Positions 33,377-53,227 of a stretch of 53,422 nucleotides of DNA are shown here, piece after piece; within the stretch, counting starts at the first letter, position 1; each line of letters starts with the position of its first letter. The stretch spans positions 1-53,422 of the forward strand of contig CACYPV010000018.1 of NCBI GenBank assembly GCA_902776375.1, written 5' to 3'. Below the pieces are notes generated by a model. The model made no database searches and was not told where the DNA came from. It saw only the letters and a list, made by a program, of their open reading frames with translations. The position numbers and the translations under genes were made by a program. This DNA is from an uncultured Ruminococcus sp. (GTDB lineage: Bacteria > Bacillota > Clostridia > Oscillospirales > Acutalibacteraceae).

Positions 33377-33901
33377 TTAGTAAGTTTTTTCACCCAGCAC
33401 GGTGCCGTCGTTTGTTTTGTAAACTAACCTGATGCTCACATCGCGTCCGCTCGCCTTGGCGATCTTTTCTTTGCTGTCAGCCATAGTTTTGGCGATACTT
33501 TTATTCTCTAACTGAGAAGCAAGCGCCGTCTTATAAAGCGATATCTGCTCTGAGGGTATTTCATTCTTATAGATATACTCATAAACCAGAGTATCGCCCT
33601 CTGCATATACATTGACGTTCATATCGTCAGTGCCGGCTTGTTTCGCCGAGCCCTTCATAAGCTCAACAATTTGATCCATTGTCAGGGTCGCGCCGCTGTT
33701 GCTGCTATCGTTTGCGCTGCTTTCAACCAAGCTGCTCTCGTCCTTGCCGCTCTCAACCTTGCTGCTTTCTGTGCTGCCGCCCTCGGTCTTGCTGCTTTCA
33801 ACCTTGCTGCTTTCGGCTTCGCTGCTGCTGTCAGATGATCCGCAGCCCGCAAACGACAGGCAAAAAACAGAAAGCATAGCTATAGCTATCAGTTTTTTCA
33901 A
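33377..33901 (-). CDS. Ser-rich lipoprotein
   Basis: A 174-aa lipoprotein. Lipobox LSFAGCGSS with Cys at about 20. A long Ser/Glu/Lys spacer follows (repeats of SSKVESSKT type, about 23-70), then a folded C-terminal domain (MDQIVELMKGSAKQAG ... DVSIRLVYKTNDG) resembling DUF4854-like domains. The start is TTG 33901 with AAGGAG 6 nt upstream; the longer frame above lacks a site. It is likely membrane-anchored on the outer face. Function unknown. Last clear backbone gene before the tRNA-Leu locus. Confidence 0.8.
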   Translation of the reverse strand: MKKLIAIAMLSVFCLSFAGCGSSDSSSEAESSKVESSKTEGGSTESSKVESGKDESSLVESSANDSSNSGATLTMDQIVELMKGSAKQAGTDDMNVNVYAEGDTLVYEYIYKNEIPSEQISLYKTALASQLENKSIAKTMADSKEKIAKASGRDVSIRLVYKTNDGTVLGEKTY

Positions 33902-34022
33902 TGTAACTCCTTCTTTCTTGTAAGATAATGAAATCATATCACAAATCATGCGGTTTTGCAAGTGCAAACAATCTTTTTGTTATCAGCTGTAAGGCACTTT
34001 ATGCATTTGCCGCAGCATTTTA

Positions 34023-34051
34023 TTGACTTTTGATAAAAAAGAATGTATAAT
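34023..34051 (+). promoter_or_regulatory. Consensus promoter of the original tRNA-Leu gene
   Basis: TTGACT (34023-34028), 17 bp, TATAAT (34046-34051). The first tRNA-Leu 5' remnant begins 18 bp later at 34070, the normal distance for a tRNA gene. No comparable promoter stands before the later remnants or the intact tRNA at 36418. Confidence 0.75.
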
Positions 34052-34069
34052 AGTTTAGTCAAGAAAAAC

Positions 34070-34202
34070 GCGCCTGTGGCGGATGAAGCGAGCAAAAGCG
34101 AGGTTTGAAATAAGGAGTACAAGGCAGCACAGTGCGCGACGCGGTACGACTATATTTCAAGCGGGACACACCACGCCGGATTTAGGTAACGCCACCTCGG
34201 TG
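34070..34202 (+). pseudogene. tRNA-Leu 5' remnant A with D-loop insertion and element-end signature
   Basis: Begins with the tRNA-Leu acceptor strand GCGCCTGTGGCGGA. About 95 nt of foreign DNA interrupt the D-loop region. It resumes with CCGGATTTAG (anticodon) and runs into GGTAACGCCACCTCGGTG (34185-34202), the same end signature as the 16.9-kb element. The insert contains an inverted repeat (TTGAAATA.. / ..TATATTTCAA). Remnant B shares about 113 bp of it. The 3' half of this tRNA copy is not nearby. Confidence 0.7.
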
Positions 34203-34276
34203 GAAGAATCATAATGGAAAATTGAAAATGGAAAGTTGAAAATTTAGGGTCACTTCGCTCCGATTTATATTGTATT

Positions 34277-34618
34277 ATGGAAAATATTATCGAAAAGAAA
34301 AGTTTTGATTTCGCAATCAGAATTGTAAGGCTGTATAAGTATCTTTCTGATAAGAAAAAGGAGTTTGTGCTTTCCAAGCAGCTTTTGCGTTCCGGAACAA
34401 GTATCGGCGCGAATGTTGCTGAAGCGCAACAAGCACAAAGTAAAGCTGATTTCATTTCTAAGATTTCTATCGCATTAAAAGAAACAACTGAAACCAAGTA
34501 TTGGCTGAGATTACTTAACGCAACTGCTTATTTATCTGACATTGAGATAAAAACTGTTTTAGCAGATTGTGTTGAAATTGAGAAAATCTTGACTACAATC
34601 TTAAAGTCAAGCAAATAA
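34277..34618 (+). CDS. Four-helix-bundle protein (S23 / rRNA intervening-sequence family)
   Basis: A 113-aa protein of the S23/avd-like four-helix-bundle family. Marks: KSFDFAIRIVRLYKYLS, LRSGTSIGANVAEA, and TKYWLRLLNATAY. Members are known from intervening sequences inside 23S rRNA genes and as accessory proteins of diversity-generating retroelements. Here it is the sole gene between two broken tRNA-Leu copies, behind element-end signature A. No reverse transcriptase is near. Its presence in a structural-RNA insertion site is notable. It lacks a convincing RBS of its own. Confidence 0.88.
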   Translation: MENIIEKKSFDFAIRIVRLYKYLSDKKKEFVLSKQLLRSGTSIGANVAEAQQAQSKADFISKISIALKETTETKYWLRLLNATAYLSDIEIKTVLADCVEIEKILTTILKSSK

Positions 34619-34658
34619 TAATTTTCCATTTTACATTTTCAACTTTCAATTCATATAA

Positions 34659-34824
34659 GCGCCTGTGGTGGAATTGGTCGCGTTGCGAGCGCCGCCTGCG
34701 GCGGATGAAGCGAGCAAAAGCGAGGTTTGAAATAAGGAGTACAAGGCAGCGCAGCGCGCGACGCGGTACAATTATATTTCAAGCGAGACACACCACGCCG
34801 GATTTAGGTAACGCTACCTCGGTG
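34659..34824 (+). pseudogene. tRNA-Leu 5' remnant B with D-loop insertion and element-end signature
   Basis: Begins GCGCCTGTGGTGGAATTGG (acceptor and D arm), is interrupted by about 120 nt (its last 113 bp matching remnant A), resumes with CGCCGGATTTAG, and ends in GGTAACGCTACCTCGGTG (34807-34824). A longer open frame (from 34705) runs through it into the next gene, but this is not a real N-terminus. Confidence 0.7.
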
Positions 34825-34851
34825 AAAAAACAAATAAAGGACAATAAGCTG

Positions 34852-35547
34852 ATGATGGTTTCTATTCTCGGTGATTCCATAAGTACGTTTGAGGGTTATA
34901 ATCCCGACGGATATGCTGTGTATTATGACAAGCGTGTTCAGTTTTTGAACGGGATCCATTCGGTATATGATACTTGGTGGGCAAAAGTGAACCAGTCGCT
35001 TCATGCCTACCTTTGCGTCAATAATTCTTATTCCGGCAGTACTGTTACAGGCGTTGCGTTTCCGAGTGGCGGCTCTGATCAGCGCTGTTCCGGCTTGCAC
35101 ACACAATTATATCAGCCGGATATGATACTTGTTTATTTGGGAATCAATGATTTTGGAAAAGGGATACCGCCGTTTCGTAAAAGAATATCAATAAAAAAAG
35201 ATCGATTGGTATTCTATGACGCATACGCCTATATGCTCGATAAATTGCAAACAAATTATCCTCACGCTAACATTGTTTGCGGAACACTTGTAAAAACCAA
35301 AATAAGAGATTCCGACTGGCTTTTTCCTCAATGCTTTTCCGGAGTTCCCTTTGATGATTATAATAACGCAATTCGAAAAGCGTGCAAAAAAGCCGACTGC
35401 CATCTTGCAGATATGGATAAGCTCAATATGCGTTTAGAAACCTTGGACGGTTCTCACCCTACGGCGCAAGGACATGCTTTGTTTGCCAAAGCGTGGATTT
35501 GCAGTTTTGAGCATTTGGGGATAATTCAGGTAACGTCACTTCGGTGA
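34852..35547 (+). CDS. SGNH/GDSL-family hydrolase
   Basis: A 231-aa hydrolase. The catalytic Ser is in LGDSISTFEGY, the oxyanion Gly/Asn lie in VNNSYSGST and LGINDFGKG, and the Asp-His pair is in DGSHPTAQGH. These enzymes deacylate sugars or lipids. I chose ATG 34852 after AAAGGA. Its last residues (QVTSLR) are encoded by end signature C (35529-35546), so the gene's 3' end is formed by the repeat. It lies between remnant B and that signature and has lower GC than the backbone. Confidence 0.85.
   Translation: MMVSILGDSISTFEGYNPDGYAVYYDKRVQFLNGIHSVYDTWWAKVNQSLHAYLCVNNSYSGSTVTGVAFPSGGSDQRCSGLHTQLYQPDMILVYLGINDFGKGIPPFRKRISIKKDRLVFYDAYAYMLDKLQTNYPHANIVCGTLVKTKIRDSDWLFPQCFSGVPFDDYNNAIRKACKKADCHLADMDKLNMRLETLDGSHPTAQGHALFAKAWICSFEHLGIIQVTSLR
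35529..35546 (+). repeat. Solo element-end signature C
   Basis: GGTAACGTCACTTCGGTG differs from the element's left end (36346-36363) at one position. It is preceded by TTCA instead of the tRNA anticodon TTTA, and no tRNA 5' part lies upstream. It forms a GTCAC-TTCG-GTGAC hairpin and overlaps the SGNH stop codon. A chance match is possible but unlikely given its place in the array. Confidence 0.6.
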
Positions 35548-35563
35548 CAGTTGGAGGATAGAT

Positions 35564-36235
35564 ATGGCACAAACAACTTCAAAAGCGCATTGCTATTTTT
35601 GCGGTAAGCTTCTGACAAAAACAGGTGCCAAGCGCCACCTTCTTACCCATGCGTATGAAGGCGATAAAGCGCAGAAGTGCTGTTTGGTAAAAGTGGACTC
35701 TCCGTACTTGAAGGATTATTGGATTTATGTTGAAATCCCGCTCACCTCAAATTTAGAGAAGCTTGATGAATTCTTGCGGTGTATTTGGCTGGAGTGCTGC
35801 GGACATATGAGCGCCTTCTACGCTGCCCGCTATGAGGACATCAGCATGAACTGCAAAATCGCCAACATTCCCATCGGCTCAGTCCTAGGTTATGAATACG
35901 ATTTTGGTTCAACAACTGAACTGACAGTTTCTTTCGTAGGATATACCGCCAGAAAACGGCAGCAAAAAGCTGTGAGATTATTGGCGCGAAACGAAGCAAA
36001 ACAGTTTCAATGCTGCATTTGCGGCAAACCGGCAAAAGAGTTATGCTGTGATTGTATGTATGAGCTTGACAATCCGTTCTTTTGCGAGTCATGTGCGCAG
36101 TCGCATTACGAAAAGGAGGAGCATTTTATGCTTCCTGTCGTCAATTCTCCCCGAATGGGAGAATGCGGCTATGAAGGTAAGTTAGATAGATACGAATTTG
36201 AGCCGAACAAGCTGTATAACAAGCAACAGCAATGA
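35564..36235 (+). CDS. pRiA4b ORF-3-like zinc protein
   Basis: A 223-aa protein. The middle carries a plasmid pRiA4b ORF-3-like domain (YLKDYWIYVEIPLTSNLEKL, then GYEYDFGSTTELTV), which is frequent on mobile DNA. Zinc-type cysteine pairs flank it: CYFCGKLL.. near the N-terminus and CCICGKPAKELCCDC plus FFCESCAQSH near the C-terminus. Function unknown, perhaps nucleic-acid binding. Start ATG 35564 follows GGAGGATA. It lies between signature C and tRNA half D and ends before a small terminator. Confidence 0.75.
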   Translation: MAQTTSKAHCYFCGKLLTKTGAKRHLLTHAYEGDKAQKCCLVKVDSPYLKDYWIYVEIPLTSNLEKLDEFLRCIWLECCGHMSAFYAARYEDISMNCKIANIPIGSVLGYEYDFGSTTELTVSFVGYTARKRQQKAVRLLARNEAKQFQCCICGKPAKELCCDCMYELDNPFFCESCAQSHYEKEEHFMLPVVNSPRMGECGYEGKLDRYEFEPNKLYNKQQQ

Positions 36236-36278
36236 GGGAGTTATTTCTTTTTTCGACACAATTAAATAACAGATAAAT

Positions 36279-36306
36279 ATCGGGTTTTGCGACCTGATTT
36301 TTATAA
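36279..36306 (+). terminator. Small terminator before tRNA half D
   Basis: ATCGGGT (36279-36285) pairs with ACCTGAT (36292-36298) including one G-T pair, followed by TTTTTATAA. It would stop transcripts of the zinc-protein gene just before the tRNA half. Confidence 0.55.
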
Positions 36307-36309
36307 AAC

Positions 36310-36346
36310 GCGCCTGTGGTGGAACTGGCAGACACGCTAGATTTAG
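36310..36346 (+). pseudogene. 5' half of a split tRNA-Leu(UAG) (D)
   Basis: GCGCCTG acceptor strand, D arm, and anticodon stem CTAGA followed by TTTAG, where it breaks into the element end. Joined to 53232-53277 it gives an 83-nt tRNA-Leu with perfect acceptor (GCGCCTG/CAGGCGC) and anticodon (CTAGA/TCTAG) stems. No insertion is present in its D loop, unlike remnants A and B. Confidence 0.9.
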
Positions 36347-36363
36347 GTAACGTCACCTCGGTG
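36346..36363. repeat. Left end of the 16.9-kb element (18-bp inverted repeat)
   Basis: GGTAACGTCACCTCGGTG. The right end at 53209-53226, CACCAAGGTGACGTTACC, is its reverse complement with one mismatch. A TTAGGT direct repeat (36343-36348 and 53228-53233) sits at the tRNA junctions and marks the crossover or duplication. Confidence 0.85.
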
Positions 36364-36417
36364 TAACAATTAAATAATTTGATTTTCACAGCGAAATGCT
36401 GTTGAAAAAATAGATGT

Positions 36418-36500
36418 GCGCCCGTGGCGGAACTGGCAGACGCGCTGGATTTAGGTTCCAGTCCGAGAGGGTGCAGGTTCAATTCCTGTCGGGCGCACCA
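36418..36500 (+). tRNA. tRNA-Leu (anticodon UAG), carried by the element
   Basis: An intact 83-nt cloverleaf: acceptor GCGCCCG/CGGGCGC, D arm with GGCAGAC, anticodon stem CTGGA/TCCAG with loop TTTAGGT (anticodon TAG), long variable arm TCCGAGAGGGT typical of leucine tRNAs, T arm GTTCAATTC, and encoded CCA. It begins 54 bp inside the left end. No convincing promoter precedes it, so transcription probably enters from the host tRNA side. It differs from the split copy by paired substitutions in two stems. Confidence 0.95.
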
Positions 36501-36751
36501 AACGGTACAAATCCGAACCTCGTCCCGATTGGAGAGAGTTTTGGGTTTGTTCTTTTTTGTTGACTTAACTGATACATATTCTTCATATTTGCAAAATTAT
36601 CTACTATTCTAAATAATGCCAAAATATCGTCGTTGGGAGTATTAGAATAGTTTTTTGTTAACATTATATTCAAACATACTGTCGAAAGCTACATGTCGAA
36701 GATGTAAAAGTATCCCGTATTTAGTGGTTTGTATGAAAATCGTTCTACATC

Positions 36752-36780
36752 TTGCGTTTAGGAAAAGATGGTACTATAAT
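36752..36780 (+). promoter_or_regulatory. Promoter of the TIR operon
   Basis: TTGCGT (36752-36757), 17 bp, TATAAT (36775-36780), 41 bp before the first start. An inverted repeat AAGATGTA (36699-36706) / TACATCTT (36746-36753) ends in the -35 and could be an operator. Confidence 0.65.
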
Positions 36781-36821
36781 AGTAAATAGACATAATTGAG
36801 ACTGTAAAAGGTGGAAGAAAG

Positions 36822-37364
36822 ATGGGTATTAATCTTGCGATTGCAAGCGATCTTGACAGATCGTTGTTTAATTATGGGTTCCGAGATTCTCGCCGAAAAT
36901 GCATATTTATTTCTCATAAAAAAGAAGATGAAGAAGCAGCTATTGCAATCGGTGATTATCTTACGAAGATAGCTAATGTAAATATTTATTTAGACGTAAA
37001 AGACTGCATCTTACAAGAAGCAGTCAGTGAGGAAAACGACAGAAAAATAGTTACTTCCATTCAAACAGGTTTGAATCTTAGTACGCACTTGTTATGCGTT
37101 ATTTCAGACCAAACGCGATTATCATGGTGGGTTCCATATGAGATTGGTTTTGCAGATCGGCAAAACGTTGAAATCACCTCGTTAATGCTTAAGAAAGCAG
37201 ATGATATTCCTTCGTTTCTCAAGATAAATAAGTCACTTAAAAACACAGATGACTTTTTACATTACATTAGCGATTTTGGGAAATATGGAAGTCTAACTCG
37301 AGATTTCAAGTATGAAGAGTTGTCAAATAGCGATCTATCGTTAATACAGAAGTATATAAGATAA
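36822..37364 (+). CDS. TIR-domain protein
   Basis: A 180-aa protein that is essentially one TIR domain. Beta A is CIFISHKKEDEEAAIAI (27-43), NVNIYLDVKDC follows, and the likely catalytic glutamate is Glu107 in WWVPYEIGFA. Bacterial TIR proteins cleave NAD+ or make cyclic ADP-ribose-type signals during antiphage defence. It opens a tight three-gene operon (11 nt to the next gene). It is AT-rich, unlike the backbone. It could act as a sensor or as a second nucleotide-processing enzyme. Confidence 0.8.
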   Translation: MGINLAIASDLDRSLFNYGFRDSRRKCIFISHKKEDEEAAIAIGDYLTKIANVNIYLDVKDCILQEAVSEENDRKIVTSIQTGLNLSTHLLCVISDQTRLSWWVPYEIGFADRQNVEITSLMLKKADDIPSFLKINKSLKNTDDFLHYISDFGKYGSLTRDFKYEELSNSDLSLIQKYIR

Positions 37365-37375
37365 GGAGGATTACT

Positions 37376-37918
37376 ATGTACGGATACGATAATTTCTATT
37401 ATAATCAGAAGCATAAAGTGTTTATCAGTTTTTACCACCACGATGATCAAAAGTACAAAGACACTTTAGAATATCTATTTGGAAACACTGTTATAAACAA
37501 ATCAGTCAGCAATGGAGAGTACAATACAGATATAAGCGATGAGTATGTTAAGCGTCTTATTCGTGAAGATAAAATCAGCGATGCATCCGTCGTTGTTGTT
37601 TTAGTTGGTCCCAACACCAAAAACCGCAAGCATGTAGATTGGGAAATTTATGCTGGTTTATCTCGATACATCAATGGCAATGCAGGACTAATTGGCGTAT
37701 TACTGCCTACATTCCCGCTGTATAGTGGAAAATACTATTATCAGGACATTCCTGCAAGACTTGCAGATAACATAAAAACCGGTTATGCAGACATTTATAC
37801 ATGGGATGATTTCACTTCGAACTATTCATCATATATTCAAGAAGCCTTTGATAACAGAAGCAAAAGACGTTCGATGATTGATAATTCCAGGCTACAGATG
37901 AAGCAAAATAAATGGTGA
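37376..37918 (+). CDS. Second TIR-like protein (ThsB-like, DUF1863 type)
   Basis: A 180-aa protein. KVFISFYHHDDQKYKD at the N-terminus and VVLVGPNTKNRKHVDWEIYAGL (Glu90 as likely catalytic residue) match the TIR-like DUF1863 family that includes Thoeris ThsB. The family makes an ADP-ribose-derived messenger on phage infection. AAGGAGG precedes its ATG. The usual ThsA effector (SIR2/SLOG or macro-domain protein) is absent; a membrane protein follows instead. Confidence 0.8.
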   Translation: MYGYDNFYYNQKHKVFISFYHHDDQKYKDTLEYLFGNTVINKSVSNGEYNTDISDEYVKRLIREDKISDASVVVVLVGPNTKNRKHVDWEIYAGLSRYINGNAGLIGVLLPTFPLYSGKYYYQDIPARLADNIKTGYADIYTWDDFTSNYSSYIQEAFDNRSKRRSMIDNSRLQMKQNKW

Positions 37919-37926
37919 GGTACCTA

Positions 37927-38553
37927 ATGGACATTATTAATATCGAGCTCGAAAACTGGTATAGTTTATCTATCAAGTTAAATTATTTCGCTATTATACT
38001 TCTATTTGTAATACTGTTTGGAGTATCTATTATAGTAAAAAAGATATTACCGCTTTTACACAAAAATTCCATGTACATAGATGAAGTTGAACTTGGGATA
38101 GGAACAAACAGCAAAGTGAAGATTAAGTTCTCACGTGAAGATAGAGAGATAGCATATAAACTATGGGTTGAAATGTCAACAAGAAAAATTATACTTCCTT
38201 TTGACGAAGAAAATGATGTGATTGTTGAAGTGTATGACTCTTGGTATAGTTTTTTTGGAATAGCCAGAGGATTACTGAAGGATATTCCAGTTGAAAAACT
38301 GAATAGCAGTCTACAATTAATCTCTGTTACAGACAGAGTTTTGAATAAATGCTTGCGTCCTCATTTAACAAAATGGCAAGCAAGATTTCGTAAATGGTAT
38401 AATTTACAGCTTGATTCTAATTCGGATTTAACTCCGCAAGAAATCCAATACACATATCCACATTATAATGAGCTGATAAAGGAATTAAAAGCAATAAATA
38501 AAAACATAGACTATTATGGGGAAATCTTAAAAAAGTTGGCGTTTAAAGAATAG
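37927..38553 (+). CDS. Membrane protein, candidate effector of the TIR operon
   Basis: A 208-aa protein starting at ATG 37927, 8 nt after the TIR-like gene. One membrane span (about 20-40, YFAIILLFVILFGVSIIV) is followed by a cytoplasmic domain with IDEVELGIGTNSKVKIKFS, then IAYKLWVEMSTRKIILPFD, and a C-terminal helical part (HLTKWQARFRKWY). I do not recognise a named family. Its position after two TIR genes suggests it is the membrane-acting output of the system. A strong terminator closes the operon. Confidence 0.75.
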   Translation: MDIINIELENWYSLSIKLNYFAIILLFVILFGVSIIVKKILPLLHKNSMYIDEVELGIGTNSKVKIKFSREDREIAYKLWVEMSTRKIILPFDEENDVIVEVYDSWYSFFGIARGLLKDIPVEKLNSSLQLISVTDRVLNKCLRPHLTKWQARFRKWYNLQLDSNSDLTPQEIQYTYPHYNELIKELKAINKNIDYYGEILKKLAFKE

Positions 38554-38588
38554 TCATTTTCGTACAGAAAGAAGCATTAGATGATTTA

Positions 38589-38622
38589 GGCAGGGAATTT
38601 TGACGCTCCCTGCCTGTTTTGT
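38589..38622 (+). terminator. Terminator of the TIR operon
   Basis: GGCAGGGA (38589-38596) pairs with TCCCTGCC (38607-38614), followed by TGTTTTGTTTT. Confidence 0.85.
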
Positions 38623-39105
38623 TTTATCGGATTGATTACCGGCTCACAAACGCTCTATTCTTCGCTCTGTTGCTTCAAGCATTCCTGCTTTTGTTTTCCC
38701 ATTCTTTGTACTCCCTTCGCTCTTCATCGCTTTGAAATAAGGCGATTATATCGGGGAGGAAAGTCCTTGCTATCGCATCCGCTATATGCTTTGGGACTCT
38801 GCTTTTTTGATCGCTTGATAATCCGATTCCTTAAATCTCATAGCAATCAGTTTTGTTTTCTTTACGTGTTTAGTATTACCTCACTTTTAGCGGTTGCCTG
38901 CTATCATTATTTCTCGAATTGTTTGGTGGTTCGGGGTCTCCCCGACGAGCTGTTTGTATCGCCGGCCGTCGGTCGGCGATACAAACATTATGCTCGACTG
39001 TCCTGTAGGAAAGCCCTTGAGAATCCGACATATATTATAGGGCTTTTTCTCCTCTGAAAGAAAACATTTTGGCAGACACACCACGTTGGTACGCCTGCCG
39101 TTTTC
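38623..39105. other. Non-coding spacer with a 13-bp perfect inverted repeat
   Basis: No gene with an RBS is seen over 480 bp. GTTTGTATCGCCG (38952-38964) and CGGCGATACAAAC (38974-38986) form a perfect hairpin. An AGGGCTTTTTCTCC tract (39039-39052) follows. The spacer lies at the 3' end of the recombinase gene, where elements of this recombinase class often have an attachment site, so it may be an internal boundary. Confidence 0.45.
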
Positions 39106-40716
39106 TTATGCTATAAACATTCTCTCCGTCAGATTACCCTCCTCATCATAACAATCCTTATGCCGTTCGAATTTGGCGTTGAGGTTGATTTTGATGTGGA
39201 GCTTTTTATCTTTCTCCGAGATAACAATGCTGTCCACCAGCAGCCGCAGGTTAGCGTCGCTGATAGCCCCCTCCTGAATAATCTGCTCGATTAAATCGAC
39301 GCTCTCTTTCATTTCCGCTTTTCGTTTTTTGATGGTCGTGCTGTAGTCTGTAATTGCCGCGATTTCCTTTTTCAGCCGTTCGATATCGTCCTCGCAGAGC
39401 TTCAGCATCCGCGTGTATATCGCGGAGTGCTCCTTGTCACGGATGCGCTCGAGCAGGATTTCTTCTTGGTCGGTCATACGCTGACGGAGCGTCCTGTTCA
39501 GCTCCGCGAGCTTATTACTGACGTTGCTTTTCTGTTTCATCCACCGTTTGATGTCGCTTTCGATAGACTGATAGTTTGAAAGTGCCCTATCCTTGATACT
39601 GAGTAATTCGTTGTAAATCAGCTCATCAAGTATGGATTCGTCAATTCTATGCGCTGTACAATATTCCTTGCCGTAGCGATGATAGCCGTTGCAGTTGTAT
39701 TCAAATCTGTCAGGCAGCCCTGCCCAACGACGGATTTTGCATACAAAGGTGCAGCCGCATTCCTCGCACCTCAGTAATCCGGTGTATCTGTGACAGGGTT
39801 TACCTGAGCTTGCCCGGACGTCTTTCTTCTTTTTCTGCCCGAAAATAGATTGTACCTGCTCCCATTTCTCCTTGGAAATGATAGCAGGTACAAAGTTTTC
39901 ATGCACGAAGTTTTCCTCAACCGGAAGCACCTCGCGGATTTGATAGATTTTATTGGTATGCGTTTTGTGGCAAACCAGCGTGCCTTTGTAGAATTCATTT
40001 TTCAGAATCCGTTTGACAGTAGTGCCTGTCCACAGAAACCGGTTCGTAATCTTCGGCGCGTTGCTCATGGTTTTCTTTTTCATCTTTTTGTTTTGATAGT
40101 AAAGCGGTGATTTCACTCCTTCGGCATTGAGCTGATGCGCGATATTTTTCAGCCCATAGCCTTGCAGATAGAGGTCGTAAATCCTTCTCACAATCTCCGC
40201 TTCTTCCTCTATGATGACAACCTCGTCGGTATTTCTGTCCTTGAAATATCCAAGCGGAGGGACAATAATAATTCCCTCGCGCTGCTTTTGCAGATAGCCT
40301 GCCGAGATTCTCCGCGAGGTATCCTTACAGTACATATCGTTGATGATACCCTTGAAGCCGATCGTCAGGTCATCCGCTTCGTTGAAGGAGTCGATATTTT
40401 CCGTGACTGAAAGCACGCGGATATTGTGTTTGCGAAGCTCGTCCATGAAAACCATCGTCTGTGTGCGGTGTCTGCCGAGCCGCGACAGGTCTTTGACAAC
40501 CACCGCGTCGATGGATTTCTTATCGAACTGCTCATAGATTTTTTCAATACCTTCGCGCTCAAAGGTCATTCCGCTAACGTTATCATCAAATGATTCTCCG
40601 ATGATTTCGTGATTATGCGCCTTTGCGTATTCGACTAAAATGTTTTTCTGGTTGGTCAGCGAGTTCTGTTCTACATCATCATCGCGTGACAACCGATAGT
40701 ATAGCCATACTCTCAT
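39106..40716 (-). CDS. Large serine recombinase (DUF4368 class)
   Basis: A 536-aa site-specific recombinase. The catalytic serine is Ser10 in WLYYRLSRDDD, and VVVKDLSRLGRHR is the second catalytic block. A recombinase domain (about 165-270), a zinc ribbon (CEECGCTFVC and CNGYHRYGKEYC, about 330-375), a coiled coil (about 395-470) and a DUF4368-like C-terminus follow. This class moves Tn4451/Tn5397-like and mobilizable elements through 2-bp crossovers. ATG 40716 follows AAAGGAGA. It is the only integrase found, so it is the candidate for insertion into tRNA-Leu; alternatively it belongs to a nested element. Confidence 0.92.
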   Translation of the reverse strand: MRVWLYYRLSRDDDVEQNSLTNQKNILVEYAKAHNHEIIGESFDDNVSGMTFEREGIEKIYEQFDKKSIDAVVVKDLSRLGRHRTQTMVFMDELRKHNIRVLSVTENIDSFNEADDLTIGFKGIINDMYCKDTSRRISAGYLQKQREGIIIVPPLGYFKDRNTDEVVIIEEEAEIVRRIYDLYLQGYGLKNIAHQLNAEGVKSPLYYQNKKMKKKTMSNAPKITNRFLWTGTTVKRILKNEFYKGTLVCHKTHTNKIYQIREVLPVEENFVHENFVPAIISKEKWEQVQSIFGQKKKKDVRASSGKPCHRYTGLLRCEECGCTFVCKIRRWAGLPDRFEYNCNGYHRYGKEYCTAHRIDESILDELIYNELLSIKDRALSNYQSIESDIKRWMKQKSNVSNKLAELNRTLRQRMTDQEEILLERIRDKEHSAIYTRMLKLCEDDIERLKKEIAAITDYSTTIKKRKAEMKESVDLIEQIIQEGAISDANLRLLVDSIVISEKDKKLHIKINLNAKFERHKDCYDEEGNLTERMFIA

Positions 40717-40812
40717 GTGTATTCTCCTTTCGATTCTGTGTGGGAATGTCGTGGCCGCGCTACCTCTGTGCAACCACAACATACCACAGTTTTTATTGAA
40801 TATCCAGACTAT

Positions 40813-40974
40813 TTACGCAGATTTTTCAAGATAAAAATCCTCGTCCGGCAGTAAATTATTTTCTGAAATGTAGTCTTTGACTACGGATTTTAAGAATGTG
40901 TTGAACTGCTCGTCGGTTCCGACGTAGTCAAATTCAACGGTAGAAATGATAATCGGCTCAGCCTTTCTCGCCAT
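40813..40974 (-). CDS. Small 53-aa element protein
   Basis: Starts at ATG 40974 (MARKAEPIIIST) after GGAAAGGAGTT, ends in LPDEDFYLEKSA. A longer in-frame version from about 41076 has a weaker site. Short acidic protein commonly seen next to such recombinases and relaxases; function unknown, possibly a recombination directionality or regulatory protein. No DNA-binding motif is obvious. Confidence 0.65.
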   Translation of the reverse strand: MARKAEPIIISTVEFDYVGTDEQFNTFLKSVVKDYISENNLLPDEDFYLEKSA

Positions 40975-41097
40975 AGAACTCCTTTCCTCGCCGTAGTAAA
41001 TGCGGCGAATTGTTTTAATTATTCTGATAATGTGGTGTTTAGTTTTGAACCAAAACCGATTCATATTTGACATCAATCCTTTCTAAAAATGTTTTGT

Positions 41098-42084
41098 TTA
41101 GTAACTTTGTGAGATACCCTGCTCTCGTTCGTAGTCCTCGCGGGTGCAGTAGGTGTGGAAGGCTTCATTTGAAATCTTTCTGCCGAGGATCTTTTCGAGA
41201 CGAAGTTTTTCCATCGTGTTCATTTCGTTGACGTAATGCGGCTGATAATAGTAGTCCGCCGGCACGGATGAAAGTATATCTCCGAGGAGATTGAACAGTC
41301 CGTCGGTGCTTGTCATGGTGAAACTGTCGTCGTGGTATGGCGTGATATAGTCGCAGTAGGTGTCAAGCATTGCGCCGTCACAGCCGCCCATGGCGAAGTA
41401 CAATTCCAAATTGTTTTTCAGAAATCGCTCATCAAACAACTTGTTGTCGCGGACTTTGTAGCCCTCGGGCGTGGTGAAGGTGATATATTTATACTTGTCT
41501 TCCCACTGCACCTTGTAGCCGTGTTCGCGCATATACTCGATGAATTCTTCCTTCGTTGACGACCAACCAATGGCGCAGGATGCTATTTCAATCAGGTCAC
41601 GCTTCCATCTTGAGTGGCGCGGATTCTTGGTTTTGGTCTCCGTCACGCTCAGCCCATACTCGCGGCACAGCTGATTGGAATACTCCTTGACCTGCAACAT
41701 CTCATCGCGGCTTTGGTGGAATTTCTTTCCGTCTTCGCAGTTGACGCTGTTCATAATAAGATGATTGTGGATGGCATGGGTGTTTGTGTGCGTAGCAACA
41801 AGCACTTGAAATCCGGGAAAGTATTCCGCAAACTTCAATCCGATTTCGTGCGCTGTCTCCGGCGTGAGATCGTCATCGGGCGAGAATGACTGCACGATAT
41901 GATAGTAGCTCCTGCCATCCTCCTTGTGAAACCGCTTCTTAACGAACCGGAATTCATCGAGGGCGCTCTCGGGTGAACAGTTCACTCCGCTGATCAATTT
42001 GCTCTCCGTCGCTTCACGGCGCGTAACATAATCAAAAATATTGTTCATCGGACTTCCTGAGTTAACAAATTTAACGACTGCCAT
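41098..42084 (-). CDS. Relaxase / mobilization nuclease
   Basis: A 328-aa relaxase of the PF03432 type. The N-terminal tyrosine is in NNIFDYVTRR (Tyr19) and the metal-binding histidines are in THTNTHAIHNHLIMNSV. It would nick oriT and lead the strand into a recipient. It overlaps the end of mobC by 40 nt and has GAGGAGGTGG upstream of its ATG. The usual primase or helicase extension is absent, so it is a short mobilization-type relaxase. Confidence 0.92.
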   Translation of the reverse strand: MAVVKFVNSGSPMNNIFDYVTRREATESKLISGVNCSPESALDEFRFVKKRFHKEDGRSYYHIVQSFSPDDDLTPETAHEIGLKFAEYFPGFQVLVATHTNTHAIHNHLIMNSVNCEDGKKFHQSRDEMLQVKEYSNQLCREYGLSVTETKTKNPRHSRWKRDLIEIASCAIGWSSTKEEFIEYMREHGYKVQWEDKYKYITFTTPEGYKVRDNKLFDERFLKNNLELYFAMGGCDGAMLDTYCDYITPYHDDSFTMTSTDGLFNLLGDILSSVPADYYYQPHYVNEMNTMEKLRLEKILGRKISNEAFHTYCTREDYEREQGISQSY

Positions 42085-42362
42085 AGCCGTGCCACCTCCT
42101 CTCTCGTCTCGCGCAAATCTACCTCGTAAATGTAGCCGGAGTTGACTGCTCTCGTCAGCTGGTTGAGGTTGTTTCCGATTTTTCTCAGCTCATTTGCTAC
42201 TTCATCTACGCCTTTGACGACGATAATCTTTTTGCCAAGCGCACAGTCACGCAGATACATGCTCGGCGTTCGGTAAGATGAGTACGCCTTTTCCTCGATG
42301 ATTTTTCTCTGCTCGGGCGTAACTCTCGTTGAAATGATTTCGGTTTTTGTTTGTGTTTTCAT
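42045..42362 (-). CDS. mobC: MobC-type relaxosome protein
   Basis: A 105-aa accessory protein. ISTRVTPEQRKIIEEKAYSS is the ribbon-helix-helix-like N-terminus, and NELRKIGNNLNQLTRAVNSG is the MobC C-terminal signature. It opens the DNA strands at oriT for the relaxase. ATG 42362 follows TTTGGAGGTG. Confidence 0.92.
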   Translation of the reverse strand: MKTQTKTEIISTRVTPEQRKIIEEKAYSSYRTPSMYLRDCALGKKIIVVKGVDEVANELRKIGNNLNQLTRAVNSGYIYEVDLRETREEVARLWQSLNLLTQEVR

Positions 42363-42377
42363 AAAAATCACCTCCAA

Positions 42378-42472
42378 AGATTTTAATAAAGGGGTGCGGG
42401 CCTTGCCCGCATCTGCCTTTGCGGCAGCCCGAAAGAGGGCGGTCGTAATACAAAGGCGAAACTGGCAATAAA
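42378..42472 (-). other. Candidate oriT region
   Basis: Immediately upstream of mobC lie clustered hairpins: GCGGGC-CTT-GCCCGC (42397-42411), CTGCC-TTTG-CGGCAG, and CCGCCCT-CTTT-CGGGCTG on the minus strand, the last followed by features like TATTACGACCGCCCT. Origins of transfer for this relaxase class lie beside mobC and have such repeats near a CGCCCT-type nick site. This is position and structure evidence only. No gene is seen between 42378 and 42681. Confidence 0.4.
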
Positions 42473-42681
42473 GCAGGAATTATTTTCTGTTTTGTAGAGT
42501 GGGTATGCTGTGTTTTGGGGCAACAGGAGCAACATTTAACCTCAGCGCACTGTTCATCAGCTTTTCCAAAACAAATCGGAGCGACAAAGAAGCAACATGC
42601 TGCACATTTGTCACCCCAACAGAAAAAGGAAAAATCCCGTGCTGACTGCGATTTTGAAACTTTGTCACCCGCGTCACCCGT

Positions 42682-44445
42682 TTATTCACACAACTCTGCG
42701 ACCGCGTCAGCCTTATCTTTGATCAGGCAGATAAAGCGGAGCGTTTTATCACCTAAGCGGATAGACTTTGTGTTCTTGCCCTTGTCGCAAATTGTCAAGC
42801 CTTCTTCGGCGAGCGCTTTAATCAATCCGTTTTTGGAAATCGAAAACGCTTCTTCTTGCTCGCCGCATAACCGTTTGACTTGCTTGTGAGCGATATCTGC
42901 ATTGAGATAGAAAAATTCATCATCTTGATAGCCGATATAGTTTACAGGCTTGAATTCAACCGGATTATGTTTATCCAGCAACACAGCCTGTCCGCTTTCG
43001 ATCAAGGAGTATAATTTCTGAATGAATTTGTGCGTCGGCTTGTCCTGATCGATATTCATGCTCTGCTTTTTTGCAAGTTCATACAAACAATTTCTGCAAC
43101 GCTCGAATGTCGAATGGTAATCTTCTTTGGAAATGATTTCATAGTCCAACAGAAAGAATAAAAAGTATTCTATACCAATCATCAGCCATGCGTAGATCTC
43201 AGGCACTCTGCCGTGACAGTGTATACCTGAATTGATAAACTCCTGACGGTAATTCTGAAAGCTTTTCTTCAGCTGATTGACGAATGACCGCTCAGTATCC
43301 TTGTCTTTCAAAAGCCGCGCCTTTATCCATTCCGTGTACGCCAGCATACAACCGCGGAGTGTGCCTTTTTCTGCTTCGCGCTGAAATTTGGAAAGGTTAT
43401 TCAGATCGATCATGCCATCGCGCAGCTCCAAGCAAAAATATCTTGCTGTTCCGCTCTCGCCAATATCGGGAGCCTGCTCGGCGGTGATGATGGCGTTACC
43501 CTGCGGCGGTCTTGACTGCATCGGAGTAGAATCTGATTTTAATCTTCCTCTGCCGATACGGTCGCCGTAGCCGCGCATGATCTGCTGTGCTGTTTCAGTC
43601 AGCTTGTTGGCTTCTTTTCTGCCGCTTGGGTGAAAGTCATCAATGCACGTCAGCACGTCCTTCAATGAAAAGGCGTTGTACATAATACTGTTTGCGGTAT
43701 CCCGAAATGACAATGGCAAATCCGAACTGTTGAACCTTCCGAAAAACGAAAGGAACAATGCCGCCAACGTACTCTTGCGCGTTCCTGTTCTGCCGAGCAA
43801 ACAGAGGACAAATTTCGGTTCGCAATTTGCCTTATGAAGAAACTCATTCAGCGGAGTCAGAAAAGTAAATGCCAACAACGGCAAAGTGATTTCATCAGGC
43901 GCAAAAGGGAAATAGCTCGTCATAAAATATGCGCTTGACAAATCTGAAACTATCCAACCATCGGCTTTTTCATATCGGCTGAGTTTTCCTCTCAGAGTGA
44001 CATCATGCTTGCCGTCGTTTGGCAGCAGATATTCCCAATGATTGTCTATCAGCTTCCAGCCGGTAACATGATAGATTTGGATTCTCTCTGCGTTCTCTGC
44101 CGTTTGCTGAATGGCGTGACGGACGTATTCTTTGACGCTTCTTTCCGGTTCAAGAACGCAATCCGCACCCCAGCGCTCAATCAGCCAGTTGAAGGATCCA
44201 AGCTCCGCACCTGTCACATCGATTTTCGGAAGCACTCTGCCGCTTGAATGAACGCCGCCTAAACGAAGCACAGTTTTTACTTCTGCGCCGTCGTCAACGC
44301 TGACCTCGCTGACAATGTACGGCAGAAAGTTGCAAAGTTTTTTAGATGTGATTCCGCTTTTGTTGGTTACCTCTTTGTAAAGGCAACCGTCCACCACCTT
44401 GTACGGAAGCGGGTACTGTACAAGGTTGTCCGTTGGATTACACAT
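42682..44445 (-). CDS. DUF927-like AAA/helicase-type ATPase
   Basis: A 587-aa protein. Walker A is LLGRTGTRKSTLAALF (about 225-240), Walker B-like is LTCIDDFHPSG, and a sensor-like ARYFCLEL follows. The N-terminal part and the P-loop pattern match DUF927-type domains found on Firmicute mobile elements, thought to act as DNA-unwinding replication proteins. It is transcribed in the same direction as mobC. It may support element replication after excision or transfer. Confidence 0.75.
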   Translation of the reverse strand: MCNPTDNLVQYPLPYKVVDGCLYKEVTNKSGITSKKLCNFLPYIVSEVSVDDGAEVKTVLRLGGVHSSGRVLPKIDVTGAELGSFNWLIERWGADCVLEPERSVKEYVRHAIQQTAENAERIQIYHVTGWKLIDNHWEYLLPNDGKHDVTLRGKLSRYEKADGWIVSDLSSAYFMTSYFPFAPDEITLPLLAFTFLTPLNEFLHKANCEPKFVLCLLGRTGTRKSTLAALFLSFFGRFNSSDLPLSFRDTANSIMYNAFSLKDVLTCIDDFHPSGRKEANKLTETAQQIMRGYGDRIGRGRLKSDSTPMQSRPPQGNAIITAEQAPDIGESGTARYFCLELRDGMIDLNNLSKFQREAEKGTLRGCMLAYTEWIKARLLKDKDTERSFVNQLKKSFQNYRQEFINSGIHCHGRVPEIYAWLMIGIEYFLFFLLDYEIISKEDYHSTFERCRNCLYELAKKQSMNIDQDKPTHKFIQKLYSLIESGQAVLLDKHNPVEFKPVNYIGYQDDEFFYLNADIAHKQVKRLCGEQEEAFSISKNGLIKALAEEGLTICDKGKNTKSIRLGDKTLRFICLIKDKADAVAELCE

Positions 44446-44485
44446 AGGTAATTCCTCCTTTCAAAAATATTTTTACAAATACAAA

Positions 44486-44510
44486 ACTCCCACTCATTAA
44501 AAGTGGGAGT
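44486..44510. promoter_or_regulatory. 9-bp hairpin between divergent genes
   Basis: ACTCCCACT (44486-44494) pairs perfectly with AGTGGGAGT (44502-44510), 7-nt loop. On the minus strand it is followed by TTTGTATTT and lies in the leader of the ATPase gene. It may be an attenuator or protein-binding hairpin. Confidence 0.5.
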
Positions 44511-44580
44511 AGTATTCATATTTGCAAATAGGTTGATTTTCAAAATGAATTATGATAATATTGATGGCAGGTGATGTAAT

Positions 44581-45120
44581 TTGAATACACGATATAATAT
44601 CCACATGCTCTCAGCGCGTTCACTTATCAGTTACGCGAAAGAGGAAAACAATCAATATACATTTCATCTCAGCAAACCGGACACGCGCAAGTGTATCATG
44701 CGTGAAGCGGCTGATGAGCAGGACGATAACGCACTGTTTTATCAGACGATGTGTGTTCTCCACGGCAGCAATATTGAACCTCCGCAAAGCGAAACTGCGC
44801 TTTGCGATTTGCAGGATGTGATTTTATATGTTGACTTCAATGGTATATTTGACCGTGGCAACTCTCCGAAAATGATGGAACGGCAGAAGAAAGCCGAAGC
44901 GATGTTTCGCCCTGAGGGTGTAACACTTGACTTTGGGAACGGCGCTCAGCGTTACCTTGCCTTTGAGCGTTCGGGCAGTATGAGCCGTCAGGCAAAGCTG
45001 TCGTTTATCCGCGCAGATGTTCACGATGAAGTGCGCAGACGAATCATGATGGATATGGTTGTCGGTGACTGTCAGCTTTCAAAGCTCTATGCCTATAAGG
45101 GTAATTGTAGTGAAAAATGA
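44581..45120 (+). CDS. N-terminal part of an RNA polymerase-like protein (split gene)
   Basis: A 179-aa protein from TTG 44581 (after AGGTGA). The end of the sequence, LDFGNGAQRYLAFERSGSMS then SFIRADVHDEVRRRIMMDM and LSKLYAYKG, reads like the region that, in full-length relatives I remember from Firmicute conjugative elements, continues without a break into the polypeptide encoded next (45110-47524). Here the frame stops right after SKLYAYKG and the next segment continues in another frame. So it is probably the front part of one broken gene, though separate translation with coupling at the GTG 45110 start is possible. Confidence 0.6.
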   Translation: MNTRYNIHMLSARSLISYAKEENNQYTFHLSKPDTRKCIMREAADEQDDNALFYQTMCVLHGSNIEPPQSETALCDLQDVILYVDFNGIFDRGNSPKMMERQKKAEAMFRPEGVTLDFGNGAQRYLAFERSGSMSRQAKLSFIRADVHDEVRRRIMMDMVVGDCQLSKLYAYKGNCSEK

Positions 45121-47524
45121 AACCTACCGCGCTCAGTCAAAAGTGGTTTCTGTTGAAGGAACTGCTGTCAGCGAAGCGGTCAAAAAGTATAACCGCAAGG
45201 AAGAATTAAGAGATATTACGGTTCTTCGCCATGACGGTGAAGGATTGATTTCCAAGGAGCTTGCAAAAACAGTTGACGTTATTTATTGTGGTAAACACAT
45301 GCACCATTCCTTCCAAATCCGTATGCCGTATGTCAAGGGTATGGTTCATGAAATTAATTTCAAGGATTTCCTGAAAAGTGCGGGCAGTGAATATATAACA
45401 GACATTTGGGGCGTTCGGCATCCTGTTGATAAGGTGGAAATGATACTCACACAGAGTATGTTTAAGGGCTATGGCTGGCTGACCGAAAACGGTATGGATT
45501 GGAATGACTATTTAAACATTTTCAAAAAGTATAATCATGCGCTGTATATAACCAATGTCAGCAAGGTGAAGCCCGACGACCACACGGAGCTGAACTATCA
45601 ATTTCTCAACACCCTATCTATGACTGCAGAAGAATTTCGTCCGCTTGATTTGCCTGACGGCTGGGAGAACAGCCCTGCCGAGGATAAAAGAGAATGGATT
45701 ACGAAAGCAACCGAACAAAGATATTTTGATTTTTGCCGTAATGAGGATTTTCGCAGGCAGTATTTTATTGATAAAAACAATACACTTGGAAAGTGTATTA
45801 AAAAGAATCCTTTGTTTGTCAATGAAAAAGCGTGTGTCAAGGAACTGAACGATAACGCCGACAAGCTGATTCGGCAGTACAGTTTAGGCAGGCTGCTCGT
45901 AAAGGGCGACAACCGCTTTCTCTCTGATGATTTGCTGGATTTGTTGATATTTATGATCGATTCCGGTGTCAAAAGGGATCATCGGCAAAGCGTGTTTTGG
46001 TCGGTGGCAATGACAGAGCGGTTTAAGAAAAATAGCTTTTACTCGCCGGGCGCGTCATATGATGCCGACGCGGTTTGTACGCTTCTGCGCAATCCGCATA
46101 TCGCACGCAACGAGGAAATTCAGCTCGGTCTTTATGGCAAATCAAGTAATATGAGAAAACACTATCTTTCTCAGCTGACAGATGTAGTGATGGTAGACCC
46201 TGAGAGCCTTGCGGCGCAGCGTTTGGGCGGCGCTGATTTTGACGGCGATATGATAAAAACGATTGCGGATGATCTGCTTAACGAATGTGTAAAGCGGAAT
46301 TACGAATATGATGATTTGAATGACCGCAGTAATCTTCCTCTGCTGTATATTCCGTCAGAAGAACCTGTTACACGAAACGCCAACGACTGGCACGACAGGT
46401 TTGTGACGGTTCGCGATACGTTTTCCTCACGTGTTGGGCAAATCTGCAATGCCGCATTTGACAGAAGCATTATAGCTTATGATGAAAACTCAAACGACGA
46501 GGAACGCCAGCACTGCCGTGAACAGACGGAGGTTCTGTCCATTCTGACAGGCTTGGAGATAGATTCCGTTAAAAGCGGCGTGAAGCCTGATTTGTCTGAA
46601 TACCTTGTCAGAGAACGAAGGGCACACAATCTCTTCCTCAAATACAAATCCTTGCTGGAGCTTGACCGGAACCACGCTTGGTACGAGGATTCACCGCAGA
46701 AGAAAATCAAGCAATTCTTTGAAGCAACCGATTGGAGTAAGGTGACCTCGAATGTAGAGCGGTTGCCGTATTTAGCCAAGCAATTAAAGGAAAACACAAA
46801 ACGTCTAAACCCGAAACCGGCAAAGGACAGCGAGCTGTTCACTTTTGCGACAAAGCCTGATTGGAAGAATCGCTTGGATTTAAATATTTTATCTTCCGTC
46901 GGATTTTTGTTGCAGCAATATGAAGCGGTTTTATTCAGAATCCGCGCCTGCCGCGCACCGATTAAGAACAAAGCAAGTCAAAACGATATTGACCGTATTC
47001 TCTATTCAAGAGGGCAGGAGGAGTTTATTGACAGTGACGCACTCTACGCAGCATTTTCAATGCTATCGCCGGAACGGATTTCAGTGGTTCGAGAAGAACT
47101 TAAAAATCAGTTGTGGCATTTGATGGATAAGGATTCACGGATTGATTTTCTGAGTGAGCTTCTCCCTGAATATGAAGATTATTATATCTTACTGGCAGAT
47201 TTCCGTTTCGGAGGTTACCGGGTACTCGGCGACTTAATTTGTGACATTGGCGATGAGAACAATGCGACAGAACGCAAAAAACTCCTCCGGTCAAACGACT
47301 CGAAGGAGTTCAATGAAATGATGCAGGCGTATTTGAATAAATCTCACGCACAGAGTTACCGTCAGGCGGTTGCTGCTGCGTGCAGGGCTTTGATGGATAA
47401 AATTATCAAGCCGAAGAAGGCAGTGCCGTATTTGGTGGCTCTCGGAAAGCGTGATTTTCTGTGGGAGATGCTGCCCGACGCGGTTTATTCGTATGTGCTG
47501 GGGGTGAAGAAAAATGCTGAATGA
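45110..47524 (+). CDS. Double-psi beta-barrel RNA polymerase-like protein
   Basis: An about 804-aa protein. The key motif is RLGGADFDGDMIKTI at residues about 371-385, the DFDGD metal-binding loop of the catalytic double-psi barrel of RNA polymerase beta' and of the single-chain YonO/eukaryotic RdRP group. Much of the rest is helical (for example SSRVGQICNAAFDRSIIAY). I chose GTG 45110 (after AAGGG); TTG 45059 and ATG 45089 are alternatives. If active, it would let the element transcribe its own genes or prime DNA. Its front part is encoded separately upstream and overlaps by 11 nt. No beta-like partner is seen. Confidence 0.75.
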   Translation: MKNETYRAQSKVVSVEGTAVSEAVKKYNRKEELRDITVLRHDGEGLISKELAKTVDVIYCGKHMHHSFQIRMPYVKGMVHEINFKDFLKSAGSEYITDIWGVRHPVDKVEMILTQSMFKGYGWLTENGMDWNDYLNIFKKYNHALYITNVSKVKPDDHTELNYQFLNTLSMTAEEFRPLDLPDGWENSPAEDKREWITKATEQRYFDFCRNEDFRRQYFIDKNNTLGKCIKKNPLFVNEKACVKELNDNADKLIRQYSLGRLLVKGDNRFLSDDLLDLLIFMIDSGVKRDHRQSVFWSVAMTERFKKNSFYSPGASYDADAVCTLLRNPHIARNEEIQLGLYGKSSNMRKHYLSQLTDVVMVDPESLAAQRLGGADFDGDMIKTIADDLLNECVKRNYEYDDLNDRSNLPLLYIPSEEPVTRNANDWHDRFVTVRDTFSSRVGQICNAAFDRSIIAYDENSNDEERQHCREQTEVLSILTGLEIDSVKSGVKPDLSEYLVRERRAHNLFLKYKSLLELDRNHAWYEDSPQKKIKQFFEATDWSKVTSNVERLPYLAKQLKENTKRLNPKPAKDSELFTFATKPDWKNRLDLNILSSVGFLLQQYEAVLFRIRACRAPIKNKASQNDIDRILYSRGQEEFIDSDALYAAFSMLSPERISVVREELKNQLWHLMDKDSRIDFLSELLPEYEDYYILLADFRFGGYRVLGDLICDIGDENNATERKKLLRSNDSKEFNEMMQAYLNKSHAQSYRQAVAAACRALMDKIIKPKKAVPYLVALGKRDFLWEMLPDAVYSYVLGVKKNAE

Positions 47525-48350: not shown

Positions 48351-48519
48351 CCGAAAGTGCAGCCGAGCGAATCTACTGCATTTTTCTTATCGCCTGAAAT
48401 GTCGCCGATAAACCGCGACAAATCGCCTGTGTGGGCTTTATTCTGTTTTATCGGGTACGACTGCGCGTTTTTTATTCGCGCGACACGGGGCGAAATTTTG
48501 TTTTTTCTGCAAATTAAAA

Positions 48520-48552
48520 GAACCGTCGTATCGTTTACCAACACGACGGTTC
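48520..48552. terminator. Terminator between convergent genes
   Basis: GAACCGTCGT (48520-48529) pairs with ACGACGGTTC (48543-48552). On the minus strand it is followed by TTTTAATTTG, 4 nt after the restriction gene. The preceding 48351-48519 stretch holds no convincing gene. Confidence 0.75.
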
Positions 48553-48555
48553 AAT

Positions 48556-49614: not shown

Positions 49615-49631
49615 AGCGTTGCCTCCTTTGA

Positions 49632-49702: not shown

Positions 49703-49760
49703 TTTATAGAATTTATTTTATTATATCATGGATTTGTATTATTATCAAGTGGAGGTTACT

Positions 49761-50921: not shown

Positions 50922-50931
50922 GAGGCTCGTT

Positions 50932-51339: not shown

Positions 51340-51359
51340 CATTGCTGAGGTTAATTTTT

Positions 51360-53226: not shown

Positions 53227-53227
53227 A

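Follow-up and report, generated by a model that had tools for sequence, protein, structure and literature searches.

A large serine recombinase element predicted to cut tRNA-Leu genes at the wobble base and to replace them with a carried tRNA of the same anticodon

The window, a stretch of 53,422 nucleotides, is an entire contig (C18) of a 2.64-Mb assembly in 76 contigs that is 98.9% complete. It contains an element which most likely cuts a tRNA-Leu gene at the wobble base by means of a large serine recombinase (LSR) and replaces it with a spare tRNA of the same anticodon, read from the promoter of the broken gene. A probability of about 0.87 is assigned to this explanation as a whole. The anatomy of the locus, its recurrence, the anticodon match, the position of the core, the sole copy in one complete genome and the empty site of a relative are all apparent from the sequences. 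On this basis, replacement of the broken tRNA by the spare appears well supported. Transcription and function of the spare, mobility of the element and the route by which spares are swapped are predicted.

The following course of events is proposed. The attP, which is almost a palindrome, would be recombined by the LSR with the anticodon arm of a tRNA-Leu gene. With a core of U33-N34 (TT for UAG, TC for CAG) the insertion would cut the tRNA at the wobble base and destroy the gene. A full tRNA-Leu with the same anticodon would then lie just inside the left end, mostly at a distance of tens to a few hundred bases and in the direction of the broken gene. Transcription from the promoter of the latter would continue across the dead 5′ half and the leader as far as the spare, and RNase P would free the spare from the precursor. 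The cell would thus keep its tRNA, now supplied by a travelling gene. Since the spare contains the same target site, further elements may insert there and leave stacks of dead 5′ halves. Recombination among the stacked ends is a likely route of spare swapping.

Anatomy of the locus and genes of the element

ARAGORN calls a single tRNA in the whole window, the carried tRNA-Leu(UAG), and Rfam RF00005 concurs with 55 bits (Table 1). The motif AGGT at 36345–36348 is common to the broken tRNA and the element end. The acceptor strands of the two broken halves pair mutually (GCGCCTG/CAGGCGC) and the intact copy has a separate acceptor pair (GCGCCCG/CGGGCGC). Joining the halves in silico yields an intact tRNA-Leu(UAG), from which the carried tRNA, a separate full-length gene, differs in 8 of 83 bases. 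An earlier note on this DNA had described an intact tRNA of the same anticodon 54 bp inside the left end of an element that breaks the host tRNA. This arrangement was confirmed by both programs and by locating the halves and the inverted arms. The distance of 54 bp holds if counted from the end of the 18-bp arm and is 73 bp from the inferred crossover after position 36344.

Table 1. Coordinates of the features (positions in the window unless a locus is named)
Feature	Position	Strand	Remarks
Promoter-like TTGACT-17-TATAAT	34023–34051	+	11/12 matches, before the outermost half
Outermost broken tRNA-Leu 5′ half	~34070–34187	+	insert, then the same element end (34185–34202)
Older broken tRNA-Leu 5′ half	~34659–34809	+	~100-bp insert, then the same element end (34807–34824)
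Broken tRNA-Leu(UAG) 5′ half	36310–36344	+	runs through base 34; to 36348 counting AGGT
Integrated element	36345–53229		16,885 bp (16.9 kb) between inferred cores, one copy of the TT core counted
Left attachment arm (attL side)	36346–36363	+	18 bp, GGTAACGTCACCTCGGTG
Leader, left arm to spare	36364–36417	+	hairpin; no convincing promoter
Carried (spare) tRNA-Leu(UAG)	36418–36500	+	intact, with CCA; anticodon 36451–36453; ARAGORN, Rfam RF00005
Two adjacent TIR/ThsB-like proteins	36822–37918	+	cargo
Large serine recombinase (LSR)	39106–40782	-	Resolvase, Recombinase and Zn-ribbon domains; likely start codon ~40716
Relaxase, MobA/VirD2-type	41098–42084	-	near the LSR
Protein with RNA-dependent RNA polymerase domain PF05183	45059–47524	+	cargo; E 1.4e-11
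HindVP-type restriction enzyme (-), C5 cytosine methylase (+), Vsr endonuclease (+)	48556–51339		cargo
Right attachment arm (attR side)	53209–53226	-	inverted copy of the left arm, one mismatch
Broken tRNA-Leu 3′ half	53228–53277	+	acceptor strand pairs with the half at 36310
Hairpin-pseudoknot leader RNA	L089:12195–12262	+	also at loci L261–L290

Other structures were considered for the interruption. A group I intron in the anticodon loop was set aside, the break being 16.9 kb long with inverted ends and a recombinase. A search of Rfam over 33900–53422 returned only the tRNA and two sub-threshold matches. A transposon with target duplication was rejected because the halves in eight relatives share sequence only through base 34; a common core in combination with likeness accounts better for the shared TTAGGT. 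Conventional rebuilding of the target by an attP fragment does not apply either, as the element keeps both halves apart.

The LSR has the domain set of a serine integrase (PF00239, PF07508 and PF13408, all exceeding the Pfam cut-off), and its attachment sites are of the corresponding type, with inverted 18-bp arms and a TT/TC core. Recombination activity is predicted from these domains and sites. Among the 14 ORFs of the element, several of which are without any family, Pfam recognised no mating gene, which makes a mobilizable element the likelier reading. By the Pfam scan it has its own integrase and a relaxase without a complete mating apparatus, as defines an IME, and is probably integrative and mobilizable. 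Additionally, the cargo includes a DUF6414 protein. A ThsA partner of the TIR/ThsB-like proteins was not recognised in the next ORF (37912–38553; no Pfam or PADLOC family match). The ORF with the RNA-dependent RNA polymerase domain of the PF05183 kind is thus on a bacterial mobile element and is flanked by two ORFs without a Pfam match.

In the following, G numbers denote genomes and L numbers loci. A hairpin shortly before the start of the LSR gene contains a sequence like the attachment arm (window ~40745–40785, L080 near 13634, L089 near 16210, L091 near 16742). This sequence is recognisable in four elements (window, G030, G192 and G236), was not seen in G105 or G185 and is perhaps a means of recombinase self-regulation. 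Searches for a circular form found no confirmed relative in IMG/VR (59 pattern matches, none confirmed) and none in phage records at E 1e-80. One plasmid record, from S. variabile, has an attR on the 3′ side of the LSR and no spare within the 41.6 kb read.

Recurrence with the recombinase and position of the core

A pattern search for the left junction in 398 family genomes gave a match in nine. The matches in G000, G151, G236, G030 and, more ambiguously, G011 are tRNA-Leu halves; the other four are not in a tRNA. A close relative of the LSR is present in six of the 398 genomes. The main scan of named genomes was made by LSR alignment and was therefore blind to tRNAs. It gave 145 relatives, of which the best 80 were taken. 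In 58 of these 80, a tRNA-Leu(UAG) or tRNA-Leu(CAG) lies within 10 kb downstream of the LSR gene on the opposite strand. Three further loci (L122, L138 and L152) have such a tRNA, together with halves, beyond 10 kb on the same contig. Any other tRNA-Leu was found in one of the 80 (L132, other strand). There is no spare at 19 of the 80 loci. In eleven of these the contig extends for less than 1.5 kb in that direction, in L106 the tRNA is interrupted by an N gap, and in L145 an attR is found on that side; six are unexplained (L129, L135, L139, L148, L153 and L165), two of which (L135 and L148) show a tRNA-Leu 3′ half at an attR despite the lack of a spare. Absence of the tRNA from related elements, named in the earlier note as an observation against its idea, is thus not what the best 80 of the 145 relatives display.

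Truncated 5′ halves were detected by a relaxed search, at most 6.5 kb upstream of the spare, in 53 of 60 loci (the 58 together with the window and G192). There are 70 halves in total and none is on the opposite strand. All 46 distinct spares ending in CCA have 7/7 acceptor pairs, with about a dozen different stems; three of 49 distinct spares do not end in CCA and were left out of this count. The arrangement, as far as the compared sequences tell, follows the LSR across genera.

Base 34 of the half agrees with that of the spare in 68 of 70 cases as scored. The miss at L164 is an off-by-one split, hence 69 of 70; the outermost half of L174 (C34 versus U34 in the spare) is a genuine mismatch. 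A narrower search for halves found the anticodon of the spare in 56 of 58, and both misses belong to L174. In eight loci (L099, L104, L130, L137, L156, L163, L169 and L174) at least one half ceases to match directly after base 34. Many halves continue as AGGT owing to the likeness of element end and tRNA. On the attR side, tRNA sequence starts again with base 33, and base 32 differs from that of the tRNA in 16 of the 17 attR sites read (window, G192, L099, L122, L130, L132, L135, L137, L145, L148, L151, L161, L164, L173, L174 and L249). The exception is L152, and L137 has a short repeat at the join. Halves that end at base 34 and a foreign base 32 at attR place the crossover core at U33-N34, so that it includes the wobble base.

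Thirteen of the elements with a read attR also have a visible spare. The core is TT in the eight with tRNA-Leu(UAG) and TC in the five with tRNA-Leu(CAG). Serine integrases act only on attP and attB sites whose core dinucleotides are the same. The wobble base is therefore part of what the element must match. In a tree of 81 LSRs, 60 have a known spare (33 UAG, 27 CAG) and the type changes at least six times; five of these changes are forced by starred branches (quick method). L146 and L168 were left out of the tree due to stop codons, and one stop in L109 was set to X. As halves and spares agree, target and spare were switched together at least five times.

Supply, proposed expression and possible exchange of the spare

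The assembly of the window has 43 tRNA matches and one tRNA-Leu(UAG), the carried copy. The remaining tRNA-Leu calls are UAA, CAA, CAG and a short CAG-like one. The last, at G000:C57:10178–10251, is a tRNA of 77 nt that was called as Leu(CAG), lacks the long arm of tRNA-Leu and is clustered with Met, Asp, Glu, Glu and Tyr tRNAs. The many other copies of tRNA-Leu(UAG) that would weaken the rescue idea are not seen in the 76 contigs. The expected tRNA-Asn and tRNA-Ile were likewise not found there, so a second copy is possible and the sole-copy status is not proven. No tRNA-Leu(GAG) was found in the 76 contigs either; CUU and CUC may hence depend on tRNA-Leu(UAG) too. CUA, CUU or CUC make up 249 of the 478 Leu codons in 12 host-side ORFs. 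Rescue of CUA and CUG decoding, as put forward in the earlier note, is supported as a rescue, and the decoding need may be wider than these two codons.

The genome of R. bicirculans 80/3, deposited as complete, has 57 tRNA matches (150 of 168 candidates scored). All ten matches of at least 80 nt are accounted for by tRNA-Leu with UAG, UAA, CAA, GAG and CAG (one each), four tRNA-Ser and one tRNA-Tyr. The single tRNA-Leu(CAG) found is the carried copy, which lies behind three broken halves. This sole copy, together with the tRNA-Leu at the same end of related elements whose matching isoacceptor is broken, supports the cargo tRNA as a rescue. In Ruminococcus sp. zg-924 (G405, also G236) both tRNA-Leu(CAG) and tRNA-Leu(UAG) appear broken (C34:8106–8606 and C37:74962–75477), with an intact copy following each; stacked leaders are present on C34.

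Promoters were counted at 10 or more of 12 matches in 52 loci, one of 53 being left out because of N letters or a short flank. Such a promoter stands ahead of the outermost visible half in 19 of the 52 loci and ahead of the spare in none. The mean score is 8.7 at the outer position versus 7.4 in shuffles, and 7.2 versus 7.2 in the leader. With promoters before outer halves and none before spares, expression from the promoter of the broken gene is the best reading. The lack of a convincing promoter before the carried tRNA, as had been claimed, was borne out in the leader. The use of the promoter of the disrupted tRNA is supported in the relatives and is less certain in the window, where 2.4 kb and three genes on the same strand separate the promoter-like site from the spare downstream of it. 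No good promoter was found for the inner half at 36310. A terminator-like site is located at 36279–36298; such sites are about as many as in shuffles.

The leaders of tRNA-Leu(CAG) contain a conserved hairpin and an H-type pseudoknot, both in CAG elements and at apparently ordinary host genes. For 39 leaders the loop of the pseudoknot pairs with its own partner over 6.05 bp on average versus 4.60 bp with exchanged partners, and none of 1000 shuffles is as high. Furthermore, the hairpin displays paired changes. Ten of 40 leaders, mostly with unclear or repeated starts, were left out of the alignment. The resulting RNA model matches in 53 of the 398 family genomes and has no match in the genome of the window. 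Of 30 leader loci read, 28 precede an intact tRNA-Leu within 350 nt (26 CAG, 2 UAG; 20 of them within 1–9 nt) and two precede a broken half. An Rfam search with the G192 leader at E up to 5 returned nothing other than tRNA and low-scoring matches. From its presence in CAG elements and at host genes, CAG spares often travel with a leader of the host kind.

The tRNA rebuilt from the flanks of the window is identical in 83 of 83 bases to the spare of the element in G151, which belongs to a different genus and has a broken half of another type. Gemmiger An50 and Flavonifractor An92 have LSRs that are 98% identical and identical spares. Near-identical LSRs with unlike spares are also found (window and L095, 95% and 21 edits; L131 and L133, 99% and 10 edits). 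Over 53 loci the outer half is more closely tied to LSR distance (rho 0.34) than the spare is (rho 0.24); for CAG loci only, LSR and spare correlate with rho 0.12, and 26 of 300 permutations are as high. Judged by these distances, the spare is not strictly inherited with the LSR. The proposed route of spare exchange between stacked elements is excision in which attL and attR come from different elements, and homologous recombination would be equally able to bring it about.

Taken jointly, these data make it rather probable that needed tRNA-Leu genes have become mobile. They would be cut at the wobble base via the core, spares would be driven by the promoter of the broken gene and exchanged at stacked sites, and in some gut Clostridia the only tRNA-Leu(UAG) or tRNA-Leu(CAG) of the cell would be borne by an element. 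A change of the target isoacceptor would then need a joint change of the attP core and the spare.

Alternatives, known systems and older layers

The intact tRNA might be an ordinary host gene, one of a tandem of tRNA-Leu genes of which the other decayed, with the element merely adjacent. The spare and the adjacent half do correlate (rho 0.52). In 12 of 53 loci their first 34 bases are the same, so that some spares may have come from the host; the R. bicirculans spare has the same sequence as its outermost half joined to the 3′ half at attR. However, the 3′ half lies at the far end of the element, the two halves of the window and of G192 pair and can be joined into an intact tRNA, and halves are fused to ends of the recombinase type. 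Moreover, the arrangement tracks the LSR across genera, and in G411, of the same genus, a single intact tRNA-Leu(UAG), preceded by the promoter TTGACA-17-TATAAT, lies after the sodium:solute symporter gene (87% identical). By this comparison, the G411 locus is the empty site, corresponding in position to the outermost half at 34070. At 12 other same-genus loci with this symporter, no tRNA was present within the 1.5 kb fetched on each side. Mere adjacency to a host gene is thus very improbable. Equally improbable is an extra tRNA of the phage kind, which would aid translation of the element itself or resist tRNA-cutting defences without any replacement role. Phages carry tRNAs, and defence-like genes are present on the element. 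Against this, the spare at the scanned loci is always tRNA-Leu(UAG) or tRNA-Leu(CAG) and of the same isoacceptor type as the broken gene, target and spare have changed in concert, and the scan found no promoter of its own.

Replacement of the broken tRNA by the spare probably does not amount to an addiction system, in which loss of the element is punished because the losing cell lacks the tRNA. This part of the earlier note is weak. The sole-copy status of the carried tRNA would suit it, as would the damaged outer halves of the window, since loss of the entire stack would deprive the cell of a good tRNA. If the newest element in the window were excised precisely, however, an intact tRNA would be restored, and the same holds for the element in G192; only imprecise loss or loss after decay of the outer halves would be penalised. 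Addiction is therefore regarded as highly unlikely. Once the outer halves have decayed, as those at 34070 and 34659 appear to have done, the spare would be the only usable copy, which is a ratchet and not a punishment.

Islands with tyrosine integrases of the Islander kind resemble the present element in that a tRNA gene is the target, crossover in the anticodon loop is a known subsite, tRNA function is kept and tRNA fragments lie at the ends (PMC4383910, as far as its accessible text goes). There, an attP fragment rebuilds the broken gene, whereas here a serine recombinase acts, the gene stays broken and a separate full-length tRNA of distinct sequence would replace it. The same portion of that article describes restoration by a fragment and states that no serine recombinase is known to use a tRNA gene as its target. 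According to the available part of PMC3218068, such cases are rare and comprise eight Mycobacterium AICE recombinases in one tRNA-Leu gene and phage phiRSM1 in tRNA-Ser. They share the serine recombinase and the tRNA-gene target with the present element, eight of them in tRNA-Leu. Compared by description only, they differ in that this part mentions no replacement tRNA. In view of these precedents, a serine recombinase in a tRNA gene is a rare target class and not a new one.

IMEs with serine recombinases (IME review PMC5704250; IME_Rho_tet, PMC12904643; both in the sections at hand) are similar with respect to the serine recombinase and relaxase, a size of 10–20 kb, gut Bacillota as hosts and inverted ends. 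They disrupt genes that the review calls dispensable, or other protein genes, whereas here a tRNA gene is hit and apparently replaced. Successive elements share a site also in the tandem or nested accretion of ICEs and IMEs, for which composite excision forms are known (PMC5704250 and PMC7168690, same limitation). In contrast, the new site here is the spare tRNA of the resident element, which leaves stacked 5′ halves. No report of a full-length replacement tRNA was found in the accessible text of open-licence PMC literature, and the available parts of PMC12884075, PMC12424338, PMC9897764, PMC7168690, PMC11536984 and PMC9144972 do not mention one.

The general description of elements in tRNA genes is that they rebuild the gene, and outright replacement would be a second solution. 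It would move tRNA genes, possibly the only copy of a cell, between genera, tie target choice to the wobble base through the recombination core and account for stacks of tRNA fragments that annotation would call pseudogenes. It would also provide many natural cases of an isoacceptor exchanged for a foreign one. Several carriers are isolates (R. bicirculans 80/3, Ruminococcus sp. zg-924 and Flavonifractor sp. An92).

The two older halves of the window, which do not figure in the earlier note, are interrupted in the region of the D-arm by mutually related inserts of about 100 bp (34080–34172 and 34677–34794), probably a repeat. In G185, a stretch of similar appearance precedes the half. The older halves are 93% alike over 138 nt, and one may thus duplicate the other. 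Between the element end and the next tRNA-Leu, a gene for a 23S rRNA-intervening-sequence protein is present in the window (34200–34651) and in G236 (L069). The two proteins are 60% identical, and the copy in the window has flanking inverted repeats. Finally, a sequence resembling the element end with one mismatch is found at 35529–35546 (within 35516–35553), at the 3′ end of a GDSL-lipase ORF and not beside a tRNA half; it is perhaps the remnant of an insertion elsewhere.
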